Positions 16,770 to 27,284 of a DNA stretch of 47,793 nucleotides are shown here, piece after piece. The notes under the pieces are model-generated. The model saw only the letters and a list, made by a program, of their open reading frames with translations. It made no database searches and was not told where the DNA came from. Source of the stretch: Verrucomicrobiaceae bacterium (GTDB lineage Bacteria; Verrucomicrobiota; Verrucomicrobiia; Chthoniobacterales; JAATET01); contig JAIYAZ010000154.1 of assembly GCA_027488755.1 (NCBI GenBank), positions 1-47,793 on the forward strand, given 5' to 3'. Numbering within the stretch: the first letter of the stretch is position 1; every line of letters begins with the position of its first letter. Made by a program: the position numbers and the translations under genes.

Positions 16770-17666
16770 CTAGTGCGCGTGCGGCTTCCAGCGCTCCAGC
16801 GACTGCTCGTGCAGGTGCCGCCGGCGCAGCACCCGGGCCAGCAACCCATACCGCGGACTGAACAGCAGCGCGGCCAGGAAAATCGCGCCCAGCACCAGCA
16901 CGATGCACGCGCCCGACGGCAGATTCAGCCAGTAGGACACGAGCAGCCCCAGGCACGAACCAATCGCGCCCAGCAGTCCCCCGCCCCAGAACAACGCCGC
17001 CACGGAATCCGCAAACAGATAAATCGTCGCCGCCGGCGCCACCAGCATGCCCAGCGCCAGCACCACGCCCACCGCCTGCAGCGAGGAAATCATCGACAGC
17101 ACCAGCGCCGCCACGAGCAGGTAATTCAGCGCGTTCACCCGCACCCCCTGGCTCGCCGCCACCGCCGGCTCAAACATCGTCAGGATCAACGGCCGCTCCA
17201 GCGCCACCAGCAGCGGCAGCACCACGAAGCTGATCCCGTAGATCACCCATAGATCCGAATCCGCCAGCCCGAGAATGTTCCCGAAAAGATAATGGTGCAG
17301 CTCCACGCGCACCGGCGACAGACTCAGCAGCACCAGCCCGAGGGAAAACGCGCACGCAAACAGCAGCCCCAGCGAGGTATCCTCCTTCACGCGGGAACAC
17401 CGCGCGATGAGCTGCGTGCCCAGCGCCACCAGCAACGCCGCCACCAGCGCGCCGAAAAACAACCCCGCCGGCGCCAGCCCGAACAACAGCACCGCCACCG
17501 CCAGTCCCGGCAACAGCGAATGCGCCACCGCATCGGCCATCAGCGCCAGCCGCCGCAGCACGATGAACGCGCTCAGGCAGCCATTCGTAAAGCCGATGAG
17601 CGCGCAGCCAAACAGCGCGCGCTGCATGAATTCATGGCGGAAGGGTTCGAGAAGCCAGTCGATCAT
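16770..17666 (-). CDS. znuB: Zinc ABC transporter permease (ZnuB/TroCD family)
   Basis: A 298-residue polytopic membrane protein of the ABC-3 family with about eight to nine membrane helices. The N-terminal MQRALFGCALIGFTNGCLSAF and SVLRRLALMADAVAHSLLPG-like segment (here FIVLRRLALMADAVAHSLLP, contacting the ATPase) are typical of metal permeases ZnuB, MntB and TroC. The C-terminus PSGACIVLVLGAIFLAALLFSPRYGL is also characteristic. The gene overlaps znuC by 4 bases and is the last gene of the zinc operon. Zinc rather than manganese specificity is inferred from the His-rich binding protein and the Zur-like regulator next to it. Confidence 0.92.
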   Translation of the reverse strand: MIDWLLEPFRHEFMQRALFGCALIGFTNGCLSAFIVLRRLALMADAVAHSLLPGLAVAVLLFGLAPAGLFFGALVAALLVALGTQLIARCSRVKEDTSLGLLFACAFSLGLVLLSLSPVRVELHHYLFGNILGLADSDLWVIYGISFVVLPLLVALERPLILTMFEPAVAASQGVRVNALNYLLVAALVLSMISSLQAVGVVLALGMLVAPAATIYLFADSVAALFWGGGLLGAIGSCLGLLVSYWLNLPSGACIVLVLGAIFLAALLFSPRYGLLARVLRRRHLHEQSLERWKPHAH

Positions 17667-18391
17667 TTTCCGGTAAACGCCTGCGTGCCAAAAGTGCGGT
17701 CGATGTTCGCCGCCGTGAAAACCTGCGCCGTCTCGCCGAAGGCCACCAGCTCGCCGTTGAGAAAGATCACCTCATCAAACAGGTCCGGCACCGTCTTGAG
17801 ATCGTGGTGCGAAGCGATCACCAGATGCCCCGCCGCCGCCAGCCGCCGCAGCGTCGCGCCGAGCATATCCTGCGCGGGCTTGTCCAGGCCGGTGAACGGC
17901 TCGTCGAGCAGCATCACGTGGGCCTCCTGAGCCAGCGCCCGCGCGAGAAAGGCCCGTTGCTGCTGCCCGCCCGAAAGCGCGCTGATCTGCCGGTCCGCCA
18001 GCTCCGTGAGCTCCATCAACGCCAGCGCCCGCTCTACCGCCTCTGCATCACCCGCGGCGTATTGCCGCCACCACCCGAGCCGCGCGTAGCGGCCCATCTC
18101 CGCCAGCCCGCGCACGGTCACGGGAAAATCCCAATCGACCGCCTCGCGCTGCGGCAGATACGCGATGTCGCGAATCGCCCGCCGCGCCCCGTGACCACCG
18201 AGCTCGATCGTGCCCGTCTCCGGTTTCACCAGGCCGACCAGCGCCTTGAAGAGCGACGTCTTGCCCGCGCCGTTCGGACCCAGCAGCGCAATCGTCCGCC
18301 CGCACCGCAGCTCCAGCGAGAGGTGATGCACCGCCGGCACGCGGTGGTAGGAAACCGTGAGGTCGGAAATGCGCAGGCGATGGGAGGACAT
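17663..18391 (-). CDS. znuC: Zinc ABC transporter ATP-binding protein
   Basis: A 242-residue ABC ATPase from the ATG at 18391; the frame runs further upstream but that part is antisense to the next gene. Motifs: Walker A GPNGAGKTS (38-46), Q-loop AYLPQREAVDWDFPV (78-91) with the DWDFP sequence typical of manganese/zinc importers, signature LSGGQQQR (139-146), Walker B VMLLDEP (159-165) and the switch His in VIASHHDL. It energises uptake through ZnuB. It starts 8 bases after the stop of the unknown operon gene and overlaps znuB by 4 bases. Confidence 0.92.
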   Translation of the reverse strand: MSSHRLRISDLTVSYHRVPAVHHLSLELRCGRTIALLGPNGAGKTSLFKALVGLVKPETGTIELGGHGARRAIRDIAYLPQREAVDWDFPVTVRGLAEMGRYARLGWWRQYAAGDAEAVERALALMELTELADRQISALSGGQQQRAFLARALAQEAHVMLLDEPFTGLDKPAQDMLGATLRRLAAAGHLVIASHHDLKTVPDLFDEVIFLNGELVAFGETAQVFTAANIDRTFGTQAFTGK

Positions 18392-18398
18392 GGCGCGG

Positions 18399-18815
18399 CT
18401 AGCGGTAGGTAAAGGTTTCCTCGACGGCTCCATCGCCCCACGCCGTGCGCGTCTGCGGTTCGTCGCCCTCGGGCGTGGCCTCCAGCTTGAGAGCCCCCGT
18501 GACGCCGCCGGGCCACGTCGCCGAGACCCCGAGATCCACGCCCTCGGCCGGCCACGGCAGATCGAGCGTAGTCTCCACCGGTTGCCCGGCGGCCTCGCCC
18601 TTCCAAATCTCACGCCCCAGGTGAGTTACCGAAAACGTCACCGGCCGCGCGGTGGCCACCAGCGTCAGCTGCACGCTCCGCGTTTCGGCGGCCGCGCGCG
18701 CGGGCGCGGGAGCCACCGCTTCCGGCGCGCGCGTGAGACTCCGCAGCGGCACCAGCAGCAGCAGCAGCAGCGCGACCACCACGAGGGCCGCACGAATCAG
18801 GGGCGAACCACGCAC
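18399..18815 (-). CDS. Unknown membrane-anchored protein inside the zinc uptake operon
   Basis: A 138-residue protein with one N-terminal membrane helix (about residues 7-24, very Leu/Val-rich), an Ala/Pro linker and a C-terminal domain of about 95 residues that reads as alternating beta strands (SVQLTLVATARPVTFSVTH and ETTLDLPWPAEGVDLGVSA). No Cys and only one His, so it is unlikely to be a metal chaperone of the usual kind. It lies 3 bases after znuA and 7 bases before znuC, so it must be cotranscribed and zinc-regulated with them. I do not recognise the family. It could be a periplasmic partner of ZnuA or of the permease. Confidence 0.65.
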   Translation of the reverse strand: MRGSPLIRAALVVVALLLLLLVPLRSLTRAPEAVAPAPARAAAETRSVQLTLVATARPVTFSVTHLGREIWKGEAAGQPVETTLDLPWPAEGVDLGVSATWPGGVTGALKLEATPEGDEPQTRTAWGDGAVEETFTYR

Positions 18816-18818
18816 CGG

Positions 18819-19730
18819 CTACCGCAGAGCCTCCACGATGGTCGTGACGTTGTGCCGTTGCATCTGCTCGTAGGTCGGCTCCGCCGCTCCCGGTCCATCG
18901 GCGTAGAGCATGCCGCCCACCCGGGTCCCCGTTTCGCGCGTGATTTCCGTCGTCACCTTGGGATTCAAGGTATCCTCGAAAAACACCGCCTTCACGCCTT
19001 CTTTGCGGATCAACGCCATCAACTCCTGCACGCGCCCCGCCGAGGCCTCCTGCTCCGTGCTCAGCCCCTCAATCGCTTCGATCTGAAAGCCGTAATCCCG
19101 CGCAAAATACTGAAACGCATCATGCGACGTCACCAGCCGGCGCTGATCCCGCGGCAGCAGCGCGACCTGCTGGCGGATCCACTTGTCCAGCACGGCGAGG
19201 CGCGCCAGGTAACCGGCGGCATTCTTCGCAAACTGCGCCTTGTCCTCCGGCGCGAGGGCCGTCAACGCGTCGCGCACCACCACGACCGCCCGTCGCATCT
19301 GTGCCACGCTGTGCCACCAATGCGGATCGACCGCCGACTCGCCCTCCGCATGGCCGTGGCCGTGCGCATGCCCGTGGTCATGCCCGCCCTCGGGCGCATC
19401 CAGCGAAGGCAAACGGTCACCCACGGACAGAATTACGCTGCCCGCCGGCGCCACCCGCGCCACCTTGTCCACGTAAGGCTCAAGGTGTTTCCCCGAGATC
19501 AAAACCAACCGCGCTCCCGCCAGGGTCTTCAGATCCACCGGCGTTGGCTGGTAGCCGTGGGGATCCACCCCTGGCTTCACGAGCCCAACCACGTCCACCG
19601 CGTCACCGCCCACCTCCCGCGCCACCTCGCTCAGCAGCGCGGAGAAGGACACCACCCGAATCGGCTCCGCGGCAAACAGCGTCGCCCCGCCCAGCAGCAC
19701 CGCAACCAGTCCCGGAAAAAATCTTCGCAT
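18819..19730 (-). CDS. znuA: Zinc ABC transporter substrate-binding protein
   Basis: A 303-residue periplasmic cluster A-I binding protein. A signal peptide (MRRFFPGLVAVLLGGATLFA) lacks a lipobox Cys, so the mature protein is soluble. Metal ligands are visible: His58 in KPGVDPHGY, His137/His140 in DPHWWH, a third His in TSHDAFQYF and Asp in FFEDTLNPK. A His-rich loop GGHDHGHAHGHGHAEG (about 116-131), found in zinc-specific members, lies before the second ligand. A good Shine-Dalgarno AGGA sits at 19738-19741, seven bases ahead of the ATG, unusually clear for this window. First gene of the operon with the unknown gene, znuC and znuB. Confidence 0.93.
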   Translation of the reverse strand: MRRFFPGLVAVLLGGATLFAAEPIRVVSFSALLSEVAREVGGDAVDVVGLVKPGVDPHGYQPTPVDLKTLAGARLVLISGKHLEPYVDKVARVAPAGSVILSVGDRLPSLDAPEGGHDHGHAHGHGHAEGESAVDPHWWHSVAQMRRAVVVVRDALTALAPEDKAQFAKNAAGYLARLAVLDKWIRQQVALLPRDQRRLVTSHDAFQYFARDYGFQIEAIEGLSTEQEASAGRVQELMALIRKEGVKAVFFEDTLNPKVTTEITRETGTRVGGMLYADGPGAAEPTYEQMQRHNVTTIVEALR

Positions 19731-19750
19731 GCGCTATTCCTACCATGAAA

Positions 19751-19766
19751 ACTTGCAACCGCAAGT
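19751..19766. promoter_or_regulatory. Candidate Zur operator
   Basis: A perfect inverted repeat, ACTTGC-4-GCAAGT, lies in the 100-base divergent region, 21 bases upstream of the znuA ATG and 65 bases upstream of the zur start. Fur-family dimers bind such palindromes over promoters, so this is the best candidate site for zinc-dependent repression of znuA and possible autoregulation. It does not closely match Zur boxes known to me from proteobacteria or firmicutes, so the assignment rests on symmetry and position. A less perfect palindrome with GCCAAC and GGTTTGC arms at 19783-19800 might be a second site. Confidence 0.45.
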
Positions 19767-19830
19767 GTCTCTTACTTCTTTTGCCAACTCGGCGGTTTGC
19801 GCGGCGCGGGTCGGCTGCTAGCGTGGCTCC

Positions 19831-20307
19831 GTGAGCAAGGCGCCGACATTGGAAGAGCAGGTGGAGTGGGCCCTGGAGGTCTGCCGCGGCAAGGGCATGC
19901 GCCGCACGCATGCCCTGCGCCAGATCCTTCGCGTGCTTTTCAAACTCGGCCGCCCCGTCGGCTGGGCCAGCCTCGCGCGCGAACCCGAGCTGGCCGACTC
20001 CTGCGACCCCTCGTCCATCTTCCGCATCCTCGTCAAACTCGAGGAGATCGGCCTCGTCCGCCGCGTCGGCTCCCCCGAACGCTCCTACTACTTCATGCTC
20101 AACCTCCCCGGCGAGCACCACGAACACATCATCTGCCGGGAGTGCGGCAAAATCGAAAACGTCGACATCGACTGCCCCGTCGGCAAGCTCGAGCAGAAGG
20201 TCGGCCGCCAGACCGGCTACGGCCAGGTCTACCACGAGCTTGAGTTCTTCGGCATCTGCCCCGACTGCCAGCTCCCGCCCGCCCGTCCCCGCGCCAAGGC
20301 CCGCTGA
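19831..20307 (+). CDS. zur: Fur-family regulator, probably the zinc uptake regulator Zur
   Basis: A 158-residue Fur-family protein starting at GTG 19831. The N-terminal winged helix (about 10-90) includes RGKGMRRTHALRQILRVL and the recognition-helix region SCDPSSIFRILVKLEEIGLV. The C-terminal dimerisation domain has HHEH (96-99) followed by CRECG (Cys102, Cys105) and CPDC (Cys143, Cys146), the structural zinc site of Fur/Zur. Divergent position next to a His-rich ZnuA and zinc permease genes indicates Zur rather than Fur, PerR or Mur. With zinc bound it would repress the znu operon. A palindrome suited for binding lies in the shared upstream region. Confidence 0.88.
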   Translation: MSKAPTLEEQVEWALEVCRGKGMRRTHALRQILRVLFKLGRPVGWASLAREPELADSCDPSSIFRILVKLEEIGLVRRVGSPERSYYFMLNLPGEHHEHIICRECGKIENVDIDCPVGKLEQKVGRQTGYGQVYHELEFFGICPDCQLPPARPRAKAR

Positions 20308-20369: not shown

Positions 20370-20915
20370 ATGCTGCGCGCGTTCCTGCTCCTCCTCGGGC
20401 TGACGACCCTCCCCGTCCTCGCCCAAAAGCCCCGCATCGAGGCGGCCCCGGCCGAAAATCCCACCGCCACCCCCACCGCTCCGCGCAAGCTCCCCAGCAC
20501 CCTCCCCACGCCCACGCCCGCCGCGCCGGCCATCGCCAAAAACACCCCGAACCGCACCCCCGACGAAATCGCCGCCGGCTTCTTCGACGCCCTCAAAGCC
20601 GACCGCGTGGACGCCGCCTACGACACGCTCGCCAACGAATTCGCCCTCGCCGACCGCGGCGACCAGGAAAAATCCATCCGCGAACAAACCCAGAAGGCCC
20701 TCGACGCCTACGGGCCCGCCCTCGGCTACGAACTCGTCCGCGAGGAAAAACTCGGCGCGAACCTCCTCCGCCGCACCTACCTCCTCACCGGCGCCGAGCT
20801 CCCCCTCCGCTGGCGCTTCTACTTCTACAAACCCGCCGACCGCTGGAAACTCATCGATCTTCGCATCGACGACGCGATTGCCGAGTGGTTCGACGACGCC
20901 GGCCGCAAGCCATGA
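20370..20915 (+). CDS. Small secreted protein of unknown function
   Basis: A 181-residue protein with a signal peptide (MLRAFLLLLGLTTLPVLA-Q), a Pro/Thr/Ala-rich linker (about 25-65) and a C-terminal domain of about 115 residues starting TPDEIAAGFFDALKADRVDAA and containing RRTYLLTGAELPLRWRFYFY. The helix-then-sheet pattern resembles NTF2-like or DUF3887/DUF4019-type stress domains, but this is pattern recognition only. Its stop overlaps the UbiA-family gene by ATGA, making it the first gene of the unit that runs to the TolC-like gene. Function unknown. Confidence 0.6.
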   Translation: MLRAFLLLLGLTTLPVLAQKPRIEAAPAENPTATPTAPRKLPSTLPTPTPAAPAIAKNTPNRTPDEIAAGFFDALKADRVDAAYDTLANEFALADRGDQEKSIREQTQKALDAYGPALGYELVREEKLGANLLRRTYLLTGAELPLRWRFYFYKPADRWKLIDLRIDDAIAEWFDDAGRKP

Positions 20916-21760
20916 CCGCCCTCGCGCCCACCGCGCGTTTCCTCCAGTTCATCCGCTTCTCGCACACCGTCTTCGCGATGCCCTTCGCCCTCGGCGCGAT
21001 GGTCGTCGCCGCCAACGGCCTGCCCCCGCTCCCCCTCATCGTCCTCATCGTGGTCGCCATGGTCTTCGCCCGCACCGCGGCCATGACCTTCAACCGCCTC
21101 ACCGACTGGGAGCTCGACCAGCGCAACCCCCGCACCTCCGGCCGCCACCGCCTCCTCTCGCGCGGCGCCGCCATCGCGACCTGCGCCGTTTCCAGCGCGC
21201 TCTTCATCGCCACCACCTGGTTCATCAACCCCCTCTGCTTCGCCCTCTCGCCCGTCGCGCTCGGCATCGTGTTTTTCTACTCCTTCACGAAACGCTTCAC
21301 CCACGCCGCGCAGTTCTTCCTCGGTCTCGCCCTCGCTGTCGCCCCCGTCGGCGCCTGGCTCGCCGTCACCGGCAGCTTCGCCGCCCCGCCGCTCATCCTC
21401 GCCGCCGCCGTCTTCTTCTGGCTCGCGGGCTTCGACACCATCTACGCCACTCAGGACTACGAAATCGACCGCCGCGAAGGTTTGAAGTCCATGGTCGTCT
21501 GGCTCGGCATCCCCGCCGCCCTCCGCGCCGCGCAGCTCTTCCACGCCCTCACCTGGCTCCTCCTCGCCGCCTTCGGCTGGAGCGCCGGCCTCGGCCCGGC
21601 CTACTTCGTCGCCCTCGCGCTCATCCTCGGCCTCCTCGTCTACGAGCACCGCGTCGCCCGCACGCTCGACGTCGCCGCGATCAACGCCGCCTTCTTCCAA
21701 TCCAACGCCTGGATCGGCGTCGTCTTCGTCGCCGGCACCTTCCTCGATCGCCTTGCCTGA
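20912..21760 (+). CDS. UbiA-family 4-hydroxybenzoate polyprenyltransferase (UbiA/MqnP-like)
   Basis: A 282-residue polytopic membrane prenyltransferase. The first Asp-rich motif reads NRLTDWELDQRNPRTSGR and the second DTIYATQDYEIDRREG, the pair that binds Mg2+-prenyl diphosphate. It attaches a polyprenyl chain to an aromatic acid. The first motif, with FNRxxDxxxDxxNPRT, resembles the MqnP enzymes of the futalosine menaquinone pathway, so a role in menaquinone synthesis is likely for this lineage, but ubiquinone UbiA cannot be excluded from sequence alone. ATG 20912 was chosen over an upstream start at 20885 because it overlaps the previous stop as ATGA. Its end overlaps the YdbH-like gene by 8 bases. 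Confidence 0.88.
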   Translation: MTALAPTARFLQFIRFSHTVFAMPFALGAMVVAANGLPPLPLIVLIVVAMVFARTAAMTFNRLTDWELDQRNPRTSGRHRLLSRGAAIATCAVSSALFIATTWFINPLCFALSPVALGIVFFYSFTKRFTHAAQFFLGLALAVAPVGAWLAVTGSFAAPPLILAAAVFFWLAGFDTIYATQDYEIDRREGLKSMVVWLGIPAALRAAQLFHALTWLLLAAFGWSAGLGPAYFVALALILGLLVYEHRVARTLDVAAINAAFFQSNAWIGVVFVAGTFLDRLA

Positions 21761-24572
21761 CGCCCCGCAAACGCGCCCCCGCCGCTGGTTCCGCCGCCTC
21801 CTCCTCGCGGCCGGAACCGCCGCCGCGCTCTTCGCCGTCGCCGGCTGGTTCGCCGCGCATCACCTCGAAGCCCTCACCCGCTTCGCGCTCCAGCAGGTCC
21901 TCCCCGGCATCAGCGTCGAAATGGGCTCGCTCCGCGCCGCCTCCCTCTCGCGCATCGAGGTCCGCCAGCTCACCCTCCGCTCGCGCAAAACCCACGCCAC
22001 CCTGCTCACCCTCGCCGGCGGCAGCATCAACTTCCGCCTCGGCGACCTCTGGCGCGCCCGCATCGAGGAGGTCCGGCTCGACACTGCCAACCTGATCATC
22101 TCCCCCGAGCTCAGCGACGCCCTCGGTCTCGCCGCCACGCAATCCGACGCCGAGACCGCCCGGAGCGGCGGCGGCTTCCTCCCGTGGTCCATCGGCCGGC
22201 TCATCCTCGACGGCGGCCACCTCCGCATCACCCGCTTCGGAAAACAATCCCCCACCCTCGACCTCGACATCACCGCCCACCTTGAGGAAGTCGGCTTCAC
22301 CGGCGAAGCCGCGCACCGCGAGCACGCGATCGCCCTCACGAACCTCCACGCCACCGACACCGCCGGCGCGACCATCTTCCGCACCGGCTCCGTCGACCTC
22401 CGCTTCACCCCCGAGGAACTCTTCGCCGGCCGCCATCTCCGCCGCGCCCACATCGCGCCCGGCGAGGCCACCCTCGGCCCGACGATTCTCAACCTCTTCC
22501 AGCCCCGCCCCGCGAAACCCGCCACCGCCACCAGCCCGGCCAAACCCGCCCGCCCCGGCTGGACCATCGGCCGCCTCAACCTCGACGACCTCGCCCTCAC
22601 CGTGCCTGACGCCCCCGGTCCCATCGGCCGCGTCTCGCTCCAGGTCCGGGCCGACCTCCAAAACCTCGGCGGCACCGCCGGCTCCGACGAACAAACCCTC
22701 CGCCTCGAAAAGCTCCAGGTCGCCGCCGACGCCGACCCCACGCAACCCCTGCTCACCGCCGACGCCGCCACTCTTCATTTCACCACCGACGGCCTCGCCG
22801 CCCGCCGTCTCGGCCGCCTCGAAATCGAAAGCCCCGCCGTCACCCTCACGCTCCCCCGCCCCGCCGCGGCGGCCCCCTCCGCTCCCGCCACATCCTCCCC
22901 CGCCACGCCCGCCGCCTCCCTGCCCGACTGGCGCCTCGACCGCCTCACCACCCGCTACGGCACCCTTCGCGTGACCGGCCTCGGCGACGGCACGCTGAGC
23001 GTCTCGACCAAATTTGCCTTCGACCTCCCCGACGTCGCCCTCACCGGCAAAGCCGCAGACCAGCCGCAGGAACTCTCGTTCTGGGACACCCGCGCCGAAC
23101 CCGCAAACGCCGCCGCCTTCCTCACCCTTAACGTCGGCACAATAACGTTCCGCCCCGCCGACCTCCTCCTCCGCCAGAAAATCGAAACCGTCCGCGTCAA
23201 AGGCGGCCGCCTCGCCGTCGGCTCCGCCCTCCAAAAACTCCTCCCCGCCGACTCTCCCGCGCCCTCCGCCAAGTCCAGCCCGTCCCCCACCCCGCCGGCC
23301 GGCGGCTGGACCATCGGCACGCTGGAAATCGCCGGCGTCCGCACCCGCCTCGAGGACAAACGACCCGGCCTCACCGAACTCCGCTTCACCGTCGGCACCA
23401 CCCTTCGCAACGTCCGCACCGGCAACCTCGCCGACGAACTCCTCGAGGAGGAACAAACCGTCGAACTCTCCAACATCGACCTCCGCTCCCCCCTCAACCC
23501 CGCCGCCAAAATCCTCTCCCTCCGCAGCGTCTTCGTCCGCTTCAGCCTCCGCGACCTCGCCCGCAAACACCTCCGCGAAATCGTCCTGCTCCGCCCCAGC
23601 ATCTACCTCAGCCAGGACCTCTTCGTTTACATGGAACGCGCCACCGCCGGCGACCCCGCCGCCACGGGCGGCACCGCGGCGACCCCCACGGCCCCCGCCG
23701 GCAAAGGCTGGTCCGTCCAGCACCTCGACGTGAAATTCGGCCGCCTCGTCATCGGCAGCGGCGGCGGCAACGACGTCGGCCTACCCCTGGAGTTCGAGAC
23801 CACCGCCGACAACCTCGCCCTCGACAACCTCGCCACCCTCCAGCTCAAGGCCGCCCTCCGCATCCCGCGCCAAAGCTACGAATTCCCCGACTACCAACTC
23901 GAGGTCACCGACGTCGAAGGCGACCTCCGCTTCGCCTACCCGCCGGAAAAGGGCGAAAAAAACCTCGTGCAAAAGCTCGATATCCAGGCCGTCCGCTGGC
24001 GCCAATACCGCGCCCGCGACGCCTGGCTTGCCGTCACCTTCGACGCCCGCGGCATCAACGGCGAATTCGGCGGCGCCGCCTACCGCGGCTACGTCAACGG
24101 CGGCTTCAGCTTCTTCTTCCAGGACAGCTCCCCCTGGATCGGCTGGGTGGCCGGCACCGACGTCGACACCGAGGCCCTCACCGCCGTCATCTCCCCGCAA
24201 AACTTCAGCCTCACCGGCCCCGCCGACTTCGAGATCCAGCTCGACGCCTTCCGCAAACGCATCGCCCGCATGCGCGGCGTCTTCCAGCTGAAGGAATCCG
24301 GCCGCCTCCGCATCGGCAAACTCGACGACCTCCTCACCAACATCCCCCCCGGCTGGAACCTCCTCAAACAAAGCAGCACCCGCATCGCCCTCGAAACCCT
24401 CCGCGACTTCCCCTACACCAAGGCCGCCGGCGACTTCTGGTTCGTCGAATCCCAGGGCCTCCTCAATCTCGACTTGAGCGGACCCACCGGTTCGCGAACA
24501 TTCGAGGTCGCCCTCCACGACGGCGCGGACGCACCCAACCTATGGCAACAAGGCAAGCTCGGCATCAAATGA
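21753..24572 (+). CDS. YdbH-like AsmA-family intermembrane lipid transport protein
   Basis: A 939-residue protein with one N-terminal membrane helix (about 13-35) and a very long periplasmic beta-rich region that repeats phrases such as GWTIGRLNLDDLALTVPD, GGWTIGTLEIAGVRTRL and GKGWSVQHLDVKFGRLVIG, as in AsmA-like bridges built from a groove of beta strands. The C-terminal part is closest to the YdbH (DctA-YdbH) type: AAYRGYVNGGFSFFF and IQLDAFRKRIARMRGVFQL and KLDDLLTNIPPG. E. coli YdbH has 879 residues. It likely carries phospholipid between the membranes. It starts at TTG 21753 within the UbiA gene and is followed with ATGA overlap by a YnbE/YdbL-like gene, exactly the E. coli ydbH-ynbE-ydbL order. 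Confidence 0.82.
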   Translation: MPDAPQTRPRRWFRRLLLAAGTAAALFAVAGWFAAHHLEALTRFALQQVLPGISVEMGSLRAASLSRIEVRQLTLRSRKTHATLLTLAGGSINFRLGDLWRARIEEVRLDTANLIISPELSDALGLAATQSDAETARSGGGFLPWSIGRLILDGGHLRITRFGKQSPTLDLDITAHLEEVGFTGEAAHREHAIALTNLHATDTAGATIFRTGSVDLRFTPEELFAGRHLRRAHIAPGEATLGPTILNLFQPRPAKPATATSPAKPARPGWTIGRLNLDDLALTVPDAPGPIGRVSLQVRADLQNLGGTAGSDEQTLRLEKLQVAADADPTQPLLTADAATLHFTTDGLAARRLGRLEIESPAVTLTLPRPAAAAPSAPATSSPATPAASLPDWRLDRLTTRYGTLRVTGLGDGTLSVSTKFAFDLPDVALTGKAADQPQELSFWDTRAEPANAAAFLTLNVGTITFRPADLLLRQKIETVRVKGGRLAVGSALQKLLPADSPAPSAKSSPSPTPPAGGWTIGTLEIAGVRTRLEDKRPGLTELRFTVGTTLRNVRTGNLADELLEEEQTVELSNIDLRSPLNPAAKILSLRSVFVRFSLRDLARKHLREIVLLRPSIYLSQDLFVYMERATAGDPAATGGTAATPTAPAGKGWSVQHLDVKFGRLVIGSGGGNDVGLPLEFETTADNLALDNLATLQLKAALRIPRQSYEFPDYQLEVTDVEGDLRFAYPPEKGEKNLVQKLDIQAVRWRQYRARDAWLAVTFDARGINGEFGGAAYRGYVNGGFSFFFQDSSPWIGWVAGTDVDTEALTAVISPQNFSLTGPADFEIQLDAFRKRIARMRGVFQLKESGRLRIGKLDDLLTNIPPGWNLLKQSSTRIALETLRDFPYTKAAGDFWFVESQGLLNLDLSGPTGSRTFEVALHDGADAPNLWQQGKLGIK

Positions 24573-25111
24573 ACCCCCGCCCCCTCCTCGCCACCGCGAC
24601 CCTCCTCGTCCTCGCCGGCTGCGCCGCCCCCTCCATCAACCTCGCCACCAACGAGCCCATCAAGGTCGACATCGCCATGCGCCTCGACGTCTACCAGCAC
24701 GGCGGCGACCTCACCGGCCGGCCCAAGGGCAACGCCACCTCCACCGCGCCCACCACGCCGACCGCCCCGCCCAACAGCGCCACCGGCGACCCCGCCGAAC
24801 GCGCCAAAAACCGCCAGGCCGACATCCAGGTCTTCAAAAACTCCCGCCTCGTCGGCGAAGGCCGCGACGGCCTGCTCGTCATCCTCACCGAACCCGCCGG
24901 CGACTACGGCGACTACGTCCGCCGCACCGTCGCCGGCGAAAACCGCGACCGCATCGAGGCCATGAAAACCCTCGCCGACAAGCAAAAGCGCCCCCTCCCC
25001 GAGATCCAGAAGGAACAGGCCGCCCTCTGGGTCAACCGCTCCTTCAAGGGCGAATGGATCGAAGTTCGCACCCCCACCGGCACCTTCCAATGGCAGCAAA
25101 AGCAGGGCTAA
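24569..25111 (+). CDS. YnbE-YdbL fusion lipoprotein
   Basis: A 180-residue lipoprotein starting at ATG 24569 (ATGA overlap with the YdbH-like gene). The lipobox VLAGC puts the acylated Cys at 18. Residues 19-45 (SINLATNEPIKVDIAMRLDV) match the small outer-membrane lipoprotein YnbE, whose strand pairs with the end of YdbH. After a Thr/Pro/Ala linker (about 46-80), residues 83-175 match YdbL (DUF1318): KNSRLVGEGRDGLL, then a helix with MKTLADKQKRPLPEIQKEQA and the ending KGEWIEV. In E. coli these are two separate proteins, the second thought to control YnbE assembly. Here they form one chain. It overlaps the TolC-like gene by 22 bases. Homology was judged by eye from memory of the families. Confidence 0.78.
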   Translation: MNPRPLLATATLLVLAGCAAPSINLATNEPIKVDIAMRLDVYQHGGDLTGRPKGNATSTAPTTPTAPPNSATGDPAERAKNRQADIQVFKNSRLVGEGRDGLLVILTEPAGDYGDYVRRTVAGENRDRIEAMKTLADKQKRPLPEIQKEQAALWVNRSFKGEWIEVRTPTGTFQWQQKQG

Positions 25112-26607
25112 CCCTCCTCGCCGTTGGCCTCCTCGGACTCGCCGCCCCCGTCACCCGGGCGGCCCCACCCGCGCCCACCCTCGACCTCACCTACCGCAGC
25201 GCCATCGAACGCGCCCTCGCCAAAAATTTCCAGATCCAGGTCGAAACCTACAACCCGAAGATCGCCAAGGCCCGCACCACCAGCGAGGAAGGCACCTTCG
25301 ACCCCGTCGTCGGCCTCTCCTACACCTACGACGAAAACCGCCGCGACCTCCGCGCCCTCACCCCCACCTTCGACGACGGCATCCCCGACAGCACCGACAC
25401 CGGCCGCTTCGCCGCCAGCAGCGGCACCGAGGCCGACGCCACCATCTCCGGCCTCACCCCCTGGGGCCTCAACTACAGCGCCGGCCTCGCCGTCACCCGC
25501 AACACCGACTCTACCAGCCCCATCGACGAACGCTACGACAGCGGCGTCGGCGTCTCCATCACCCAGCCGCTCCTCCGCGGCTTCGGCACCGACGTCAACC
25601 TCGCCCAGGTCCGCATCGCCCGCACGAACCAGACCATCTCCGCCTGGTCCCTCCGCCAGCGCGTCATGGACGTCATCACCGACGTCATCCGCATCTACAA
25701 CGACCTCTACTTCTCGATCGAAAACCTCGCCGTCGAACGCCGCTCCCTCGACCTCGCCCGCCAGACCCTCCGCGACAACCAGCGCCGTGCCGACATCGGC
25801 GTCATGTCCCCCCTCGACGTCGTCCAGGCCCAGACCGACGTCGCCGACCGCGAAGGCCGCGTCCTCATCGCGGAACGCGCCCTCGCCGACAACGAAAACT
25901 TCCTCAAGCAACTCGTCACCGACGAAGTCACCCGCCTCCTCGCCACCCAGGTCCGCATCGCCGCGCCCCCCTTCGACCTCAACGCCCGCATCGACGAAAC
26001 CGCCGACCTCCGCCGCGCCTTCGACCTCCGCCCCGACTACCAGCAGTCCCTCCTCGACATCCAGAAACGCAACATCACCGTCGTCTTCGCCCGCAACCAA
26101 ACCCTCCCCCAGCTCGACCTCGTCGCCAGCCTCGGGCTCAACGGCCTCGACACCAGCCTCGGCGGCAGCGCCTCCGAAGTCACCACCCCCAGCCAGTTCT
26201 CCGCCACCGTCGGCGGCGTCTTCAGCCTCCCCGTCCCGAACCGCACCGCCCAGGGCAACTTCCAAGTTGCCCAACTCGAAGTCGCCCGCCAGCTCGTCGC
26301 CCTCAAGCAACTCGAACAAACCATCACCGTCGAAGTCGACAACGCCGCGGGCCGCATCCACACCACCCGCAAACTCATCGACTCCTCCCGCGCCGCCCGC
26401 ACCTTCGCCGAGCGCACCCTCGAAGCCGCCCAATCCCGCCTCGGCGCCGGCACCGCCACCACCTTCGAAGTCCTCCAGTTCCAGCGCGACCTCGCCACCG
26501 CCGAAACCACCGAAGTCCGCGCCCTCACCGAATACCAGAAAGCCCTCGCCGAATACGCCCGCCTCACCGGCACCACCCTCGAGCGCAACCGCATCCGCCT
26601 CGACTAA
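25090..26607 (+). CDS. TolC-family outer-membrane protein
   Basis: A 505-residue protein with a signal peptide (MAAKAGLTLLAVGLLGLAAP then TRA) and two tandem outer-membrane-factor repeats: long helices (FQIQVETYNPKIAKARTTSE, RQTLRDNQRRADIGVMSPLD, then again ARTFAERTLEAAQSRLGAGT and FQRDLATAETTEVRALTEYQ) flanking short strands (GVGVSITQPLLRGFG, ATVGGVFSLPVP). The QPLLRGFG and IGVMSPLDVVQAQTD signatures are typical of TolC relatives. ATG 25090 lies inside the previous gene and begins the signal peptide; the upstream start at 25054 does not. No membrane fusion protein or pump gene is adjacent; its neighbours are the YdbH/YnbE-YdbL genes, suggesting a role in envelope transport with them. Confidence 0.88.
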   Translation: MAAKAGLTLLAVGLLGLAAPVTRAAPPAPTLDLTYRSAIERALAKNFQIQVETYNPKIAKARTTSEEGTFDPVVGLSYTYDENRRDLRALTPTFDDGIPDSTDTGRFAASSGTEADATISGLTPWGLNYSAGLAVTRNTDSTSPIDERYDSGVGVSITQPLLRGFGTDVNLAQVRIARTNQTISAWSLRQRVMDVITDVIRIYNDLYFSIENLAVERRSLDLARQTLRDNQRRADIGVMSPLDVVQAQTDVADREGRVLIAERALADNENFLKQLVTDEVTRLLATQVRIAAPPFDLNARIDETADLRRAFDLRPDYQQSLLDIQKRNITVVFARNQTLPQLDLVASLGLNGLDTSLGGSASEVTTPSQFSATVGGVFSLPVPNRTAQGNFQVAQLEVARQLVALKQLEQTITVEVDNAAGRIHTTRKLIDSSRAARTFAERTLEAAQSRLGAGTATTFEVLQFQRDLATAETTEVRALTEYQKALAEYARLTGTTLERNRIRLD

Positions 26608-26631: not shown

Positions 26632-26657
26632 TTGACACCTCCCCGCCGGAATAACGA
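26632..26657 (+). promoter_or_regulatory. Possible promoter of the toxin-antitoxin pair
   Basis: A perfect -35 hexamer TTGACA lies at 26632-26637 in the 60-base gap before the antitoxin. The best -10-like sequence, ATAACG/TAACGA at 26651-26657, is poorly spaced, so only the -35 is persuasive. A weak GGGA lies before the ATG at 26668. Confidence 0.3.
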
Positions 26658-26667
26658 ACGTGGGAAC

Positions 26668-26898
26668 ATGGCCATCGAAACCAAGGTTCGCAAGATCGGC
26701 AACTCCCTCGGCATCGTCCTTCCCAAGGAAGCCCTCAACGCGCTGAAGGTCGATGAAGGCGCCGTCCTCTACCTCACCGAAGCGCCGGAAAACGCCCTCC
26801 GCCTCACCCCCGAGCGCCCCGGCTTCAAGGAAAAGATGGCCGTGGCCGAAAGCCTCATGCAGCGCTACCGCAACGCCCTGCGCGAGCTCGCGAAATGA
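26668..26898 (+). CDS. AbrB/MazE-type antitoxin
   Basis: A 76-residue protein with the swapped-hairpin AbrB fold: METKVRKIGNSLGIVLPKEAL-like core (here IETKVRKIGNSLGIVLPKEA) and YLTEAPENALRLTPERPG, followed by a helical C-terminus (about 52-76) that would neutralise the toxin. It starts at ATG 26668; an upstream in-frame start at 26632 is less likely. Its stop overlaps the Doc-like toxin by 4 bases (ATGA). Antitoxin and complex normally repress their own promoter. Confidence 0.85.
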   Translation: MAIETKVRKIGNSLGIVLPKEALNALKVDEGAVLYLTEAPENALRLTPERPGFKEKMAVAESLMQRYRNALRELAK

Positions 26899-27284
26899 CC
26901 GGGCCCGTCTGGATCGACGCCGCGGACTGCCACGCCTTCCACGCCGAAATGCTCAGGCGCTTCGGCGGTCTTGAGGGGCTCCGCGACGAAGGCCTCCTCG
27001 ACTCGGCCCTCAATCGGCCCCGCCAGCTTTTTACCTACGGCGAACCTTCGCTCTTCGAACTCGCCGCCGCCTACGCGGAGGGAATCGTGAAAAACCACCC
27101 CTTCCTCGACGGCAACCTACCGACGGGATATCTCGCCGCCACCCTCTTCCTGGAAATCAACGGTCACCGCTTCACCGCCCCCGAAGAGGAGGTCGTCGAA
27201 CGCACGCTCGCCCTCGCCGCCGGGGCCATCGCCGCGCCCGGCTATGCCGCCTGGCTCCAGCAATCCTACCCGCCCGCCCGGTAA
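26895..27284 (+). CDS. Doc-like (Fic fold) toxin with altered active-site motif
   Basis: A 129-residue death-on-curing family protein. The framework is nearly consensus: GLRDEGLLDSALNRPRQLFT, AAAYAEGIVKNHPFLDGN and LFLEINGHRF. Doc proteins carry HxFxDxNKR; here the motif reads HPFLDGNLPTGY, so His68, Asp72 and Asn74 are kept but the Lys-Arg pair is replaced by Leu75-Pro76. In phage P1 Doc these residues help the kinase reaction that inactivates EF-Tu, so this toxin may be weak, inactive or changed in activity. Leu75 uses CTA, a codon rare among the CTC/CTG-dominated neighbours, suggesting a recent change. The frame is otherwise intact, and the antitoxin upstream also looks intact. Confidence 0.85.
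   Translation: MTGPVWIDAADCHAFHAEMLRRFGGLEGLRDEGLLDSALNRPRQLFTYGEPSLFELAAAYAEGIVKNHPFLDGNLPTGYLAATLFLEINGHRFTAPEEEVVERTLALAAGAIAAPGYAAWLQQSYPPAR

Follow-up and report, generated by a model that had tools for sequence, protein, structure and literature searches.

In the account of Kumar, Davis and Ruiz (PNAS, 2024), YnbE of E. coli reportedly adds a strand to the groove of YdbH, and YdbL is said to limit amyloid-like stacking of YnbE. Other AsmA-like bridges (TamAB with TamB, and YhdP) are likewise based on a protein with a beta-groove that sits in the inner membrane and is presumed to transport phospholipids. The YdbH-YnbE partnership in E. coli has been described (PMC11784454, PMC12977461).

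The locus presented here lies on a stretch of 47,793 nucleotides from a member of the Verrucomicrobiaceae, the whole of which is referred to as the window. In this locus the counterparts of ynbE and ydbL form one gene behind a YdbH-like gene. The fused form is a new, widespread variant of the known YdbH-YnbE-YdbL system. No description of such a fusion was found in the open-access papers searched. A Methylacidiphilum lipoprotein (PMC10260701) was considered as an earlier description and rejected, as it is a different protein of 139 aa.

Organization of the fused gene

The initial annotation had described the ORF behind the YdbH-like gene as one lipoprotein made up of Cys18, a YnbE-like segment, a linker and a YdbL domain, and sequence, profiles and fold all confirmed this reading (Table 1). 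The fused architecture is strongly supported.

Table 1. Features of the fused gene and its surroundings in the window
Feature	Position	Strand	Remarks
Zinc-uptake-like ABC genes (-) adjoining Fur-family regulator (+)	17663..20307	-/+	names from reading
UbiA-type prenyltransferase gene	20885..21760	+	overlaps start of YdbH-like gene by 8 nt; name from reading
YdbH-like AsmA-superfamily protein, partner gene	21753..24572	+	939 aa; profile comparison; synteny
ynbE-ydbL fusion gene	24569..25111	+	180 aa; ATG shares 4 nt (ATGA) with TGA of upstream 939-aa ORF
Lipoprotein signal peptide, residues 1-17, lipobox LAGC	24569..24619	+	sequence
Cys18, predicted lipidation site	24620..24622	+	sequence; next residue Ala
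YnbE-like segment, residues 19-45, core motif EPIKVDIAMRLDVYQH	24623..24703	+	conservation; HMM score 43.9 bits
Thr/Pro/Ala low-complexity linker, residues ~46-74	24704..24790	+	variable length among relatives; pLDDT ~50-70
YdbL (DUF1318) domain, residues 75-180	24791..25108	+	PF07027 match; 28oj fold match
TolC-like outer-membrane factor gene	25090..26607	+	likely start overlaps end of fusion gene
AbrB/MazE-like and Doc/Fic-like pair	26632..27284	+	resembles toxin-antitoxin module; name from reading

The lipobox cysteine is nearly invariant among the 37 aligned relatives. Residue counts showed Asp at position +2 after the lipidated cysteine in no relative (Ala in the window), which is consistent with outer-membrane sorting under the E. 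coli +2 rule, and the fusion protein is predicted to be located in the outer membrane.

Identity of the C-terminal domain

The C-terminal domain, placed earlier at residues 83-175, is beyond doubt a YdbL domain. In a Pfam profile search DUF1318 (PF07027) matched residues 81-178 with 1.7e-10 and 41.7 bits, against a cutoff of 27, and it matched all 37 aligned relatives of the fusion as well. Residues 75-180 were folded with a pLDDT of mostly 95-98 in an AlphaFold model based on 37 aligned sequences. The crystal structure of E. coli YdbL, 28oj, was the sole PDB match with E below 0.001 (Foldseek prob 1.00), and a second structure aligner superposed the predicted domain on it over 87/87 residues with Z 13.7 and an rmsd of 1.3 Å; the runner-up reached Z 3.1. 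Both domains share 24% identity, the one in the window having an extra N-terminal tether and strand.

Conservation and kinship of the lipid-anchored segment

Among 40 orthologues, conservation peaks at residues 19-45, with a mean information of 3.17 bits per column and no gaps. The DUF1318 part reached 2.80 bits and the linker 2.31 bits, with on average 13 of the 40 rows gapped in the latter. Two HMMs of the segment were used, one made from genome-scan loci, nearly all of them Candidatus Omnitrophota fusions, the other from the window's own order. The window segment scored 43.9 bits with the mostly-Omnitrophota HMM (best of 1000 shuffles 4.8). E. coli YnbE obtained 12.0 bits with this HMM and 11.9 bits with that of the order, a score reached by 0/1000 shuffles in either case. 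The 10-residue motif VD[IV]xM[RK][LV]D[VI]Y of the segment, scanned over 84,980 species genomes, was present in 89 stretches, all except one of which (88/89) encode fusion relatives.

PF13617 (Lipoprotein_19) is the Pfam family of YnbE, which the initial annotation had wrongly given as 'DUF2291-like'. No match to it above the cutoff was found in the window protein, in 36 scanned relatives or in the window's own genome, which has one DUF1318 match; as the segment stays below this cutoff, it is named YnbE-like and not assigned to PF13617. By themselves, searches against Pfam, NCBIfam and PDB sequences identified neither the YnbE segment nor the 939-aa protein. An HMM of separate verrucomicrobial YnbEs gave no signal in the window (-0.1 bits), because those YnbEs are a different subtype: their motif reads KPIHITxDVNxKVDxxLDDFFGDLD, versus EPIKVDIxMRLDVYQH in the window type. 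The YnbE kinship of the window segment was traced via the Omnitrophota relatives and E. coli. In other verrucomicrobial families an HMM of separate YnbEs only does detect YnbE segments within DUF1318 ORFs, with values reaching about 1e-16, and sub-threshold PF13617 alignments were located at the expected segment position in 7 of 10 fusions.

These results bear on the view that residues 19-45 are an ordinary lipoprotein leader and that the gene encodes just a lipid-anchored YdbL. The shortness of the segment, the lack of a PF13617 match and a direct similarity to E. coli YnbE of only about 12 bits would fit this view. It is nevertheless very unlikely, since the segment directly behind the lipid anchor shows the highest conservation in the protein and its HMM link to E. 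coli YnbE exceeds every shuffle, while the fusions of other families carry an unmistakable YnbE segment at the same place. A conserved YnbE-like segment beside the lipid anchor is strongly supported by the alignments; the earlier designation holds for conservation and for the link of the fusion HMM to E. coli YnbE, but does not extend to the PF13617 profile.

The upstream gene and its surroundings

The 939-aa protein has no Pfam match, including to PF11739 of YdbH. Among 26 relatives of its family, one weakly matched PF11739 (0.0029) and 13 matched DUF748, which we take to be another AsmA-superfamily model. The protein is named YdbH-like, as it falls below the PF11739 cutoff. Comparison of its family profile with that of the Omnitrophota upstream proteins by hhalign gave prob 98.8 and E 4.7e-17, and PF11739 was matched by 12/23 of these Omnitrophota proteins, at best with 3.6e-12. 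Direct comparison of the 939-aa family profile with E. coli YdbH was weak (E 0.062), the alignment lying in the C-terminal region. In two tested fusions of other verrucomicrobial families the upstream neighbours matched YdbH PF11739 at about 87 bits.

A homologue of the 939-aa protein was encoded directly upstream in 34/34 tested window-type fusion loci, and the 4-nt gene overlap was seen again in 19 of the fusion loci counted. Among 14 control genomes, DUF1318 and YdbH-like proteins occurred only in E. coli and Caulobacter. The proposed lipid-bridge gene neighbourhood is supported by the kinship of the YdbH-like profiles together with this adjacency, and conserved coupling of the fusion to a YdbH-like gene is well established.

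Several other genes surround the pair. The UbiA-type gene is kept in several relatives, and linkage of the TolC-like gene was seen only in two near-relative loci (L184, L185). As these two neighbours are kept only in nearer relatives, the conserved unit consists of the ydbH-like gene and the fusion. The putative toxin-antitoxin pair and the zinc-uptake-like genes lie further out on either side (Table 1). Elsewhere in the window's own genome a TamB homologue was found (L264, G000:C73:9360-10133; 81.9 bits), which suggests that the YdbH-like bridge may be redundant, as in E. coli.

Distribution and history of the fusion

The fusion had been put forward as a natural arrangement, and it turned out to be far wider than claimed, occurring in two phyla. 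Full-length fusions without internal stops were present in 38 of 197 genomes of the window's order, and more than 40 fusion loci from many independent assemblies were found in Candidatus Omnitrophota. Joining of two genes by an assembly or gene-calling artefact is refuted by these orthologues. In the phylum Verrucomicrobiota, 135 of 388 sampled genomes contained DUF1318; separate ynbE and ydbL genes were found in 91 of these and a fused gene in about 37, with a few unclear cases. The HMMs for this count include some window-type fused sequences, so that detection of these was built in; families f9, f12 and f24 contributed nothing to the training sets.

On a DUF1318 tree of 94 columns and 161 rows, the fused and split states need 2 changes, compared to a mean of about 49 after shuffling, so that one or few old events suffice. 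Repeated independent fusion was accordingly rejected as a claim. The fusion looks like an old alternative arrangement rather than a series of recent accidents; the tree does not tell fusion from fission as the direction.

Some genomes deviate from the common pattern. Those of family f9 (2.2-2.5 Mb) mostly have two fused copies (L132/L142, L133/L147, L134/L152, L119/L150 and L099/L138), the second with a diverged segment (SPKQPKLYDVNASVNVKSPP) and possibly a paralogue that serves another partner. A ydbH-fusion pair of the verrucomicrobial type, 44% identical, is present on a contig titled Deltaproteobacteria bacterium OFTM293 (L209), which points to horizontal transfer or mis-binning. In both loci of family f52 (L140, L141) a TGA is found inside the stretch matched by DUF1318, possibly giving a shortened YdbL.

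Tether length and fate of the linker

The tether between the equivalents of Y42 and R82 measures 23-39 residues in the window's order. Approximate figures for Omnitrophota are 45-58 residues, with 78 at most, and in one relative (L160) the strand core and DUF1318 are no more than about 11 residues apart. With so short a tether, YdbL must lie immediately next to the strand in some lineages.

A fixed 1:1 synthesis ratio and retention of the YdbL domain by the lipid anchor, both part of the initial annotation, follow from the single polypeptide as long as the linker stays intact in the cell. Cleavage of the linker is central to the idea that the fusion is a precursor, processed in the periplasm into two parts that work apart from each other, like those of E. 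coli. A low-complexity, exposed and variable linker would suit this, but no conserved cleavage motif was seen in the linkers of 37 relatives, and with 11 residues the linker is nearly absent in some fused forms. We consider this precursor idea improbable.

Proposed role of the fusion protein

The fusion protein is probably a bridge tether that carries its own anti-polymerisation domain and acts as partner of the YdbH-like protein, a function deduced from E. coli. It would be an outer-membrane lipoprotein in which a flexible tether joins a YnbE-like strand to a YdbL domain. By analogy with the E. coli model, the YdbH-like protein would start at the inner membrane and reach outwards; the end of its beta-groove would be extended by the YnbE strand, so that phospholipids could pass all the way to the outer membrane. 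Until YdbH is encountered, the tethered YdbL domain would cover the strand, and it would stop more YnbE strands from stacking on. Through the fusion it would stay at that end of the bridge which meets the outer membrane instead of diffusing through the periplasm.

The short tether in L160 and the presence of a tethered YdbL in every fused form, both of which place the domain near the finished bridge, also suit a second reading, in which YdbL stays in the bridge permanently as a structural element of its outer-membrane end, either capping it or serving for docking, and is not a transient chaperone. The domain is moreover conserved like a folded binding domain. On the other hand, YdbL of E. coli is encoded by a gene of its own, has no lipobox and is reported to limit YnbE multimers, and a permanent role appears somewhat unlikely.

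Structure predictions were made for both the single protein and a complex. In the AlphaFold model of the single protein, the YnbE segment had no ordered structure and did not dock onto the YdbL domain of the same chain. For a pseudo-complex, an Omnitrophota locus with both genes in one frame and TAA read as Gly was submitted to AlphaFold. The YdbH-like groove and the YdbL domain were confident, as was a helix (417-435) after the YnbE strand part. The strand part itself had a pLDDT below 50 and was unpaired with the YdbH-like C-terminus, in a prediction that had only four paired rows, no positive control and a signal peptide between the two parts. Tracking of the YdbH tip type with the YnbE motif type was dropped, the crude patterns being too noisy.

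In the Omnitrophota loci (L217-L263, e.g. L251:3858-4976) the YdbH-like protein is mostly about 290-420 aa long. Lengths in the window's group are 656-1221 aa versus 879 aa in E. coli. The Omnitrophota model consists of an N-terminal helix (2-38) and repeated strands and resembles the TamAB structure 9xdc (E 8.9e-4). Perhaps this protein is too short to span a usual periplasm alone. One could then imagine the fusion as a building unit that limits itself: YnbE strands, several of them and each with a YdbL domain attached, would stack in controlled number and lengthen a short YdbH so that it reaches the outer membrane. We think this unlikely; if true, it would matter most in Omnitrophota, where the lipoprotein and not YdbH would form much of the bridge.

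Comparison with known systems

Proteins found fused usually act together. The YnbE-YdbL fusion thus gives independent evolutionary support for YdbL acting on YnbE, an idea based on E. coli data. It also limits the possible models, as YdbL would have to work while anchored to the outer membrane, at 11 to about 78 residues from the YnbE strand across lineages and at a fixed synthesis ratio. No solved structure of the YnbE or YdbH of the bridge was found, and the fusions kept in two phyla offer ready one-chain proteins for structural work on it.

TamAB, TamB and YhdP bridges differ from the window in their outer-membrane partner. The split ynbE/ydbL pairs in the 91 sampled genomes of other Verrucomicrobiota have the same neighbours, with a PF11739 YdbH-like gene in several loci. 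The E. coli YdbH-YnbE-YdbL bridge (b1381-b1383) has in common with the window the gene order, the 4-nt overlap at the end of ydbH, the lipoprotein strand segment, a complete YdbL fold and an AsmA-type upstream protein, although the YdbH and YnbE parts of the window are below the curated Pfam cutoffs. Whereas ynbE and ydbL are separate in E. coli, the window has one gene, in which the YdbL domain sits behind a lipobox and a YnbE-like segment and is anchored by lipid.
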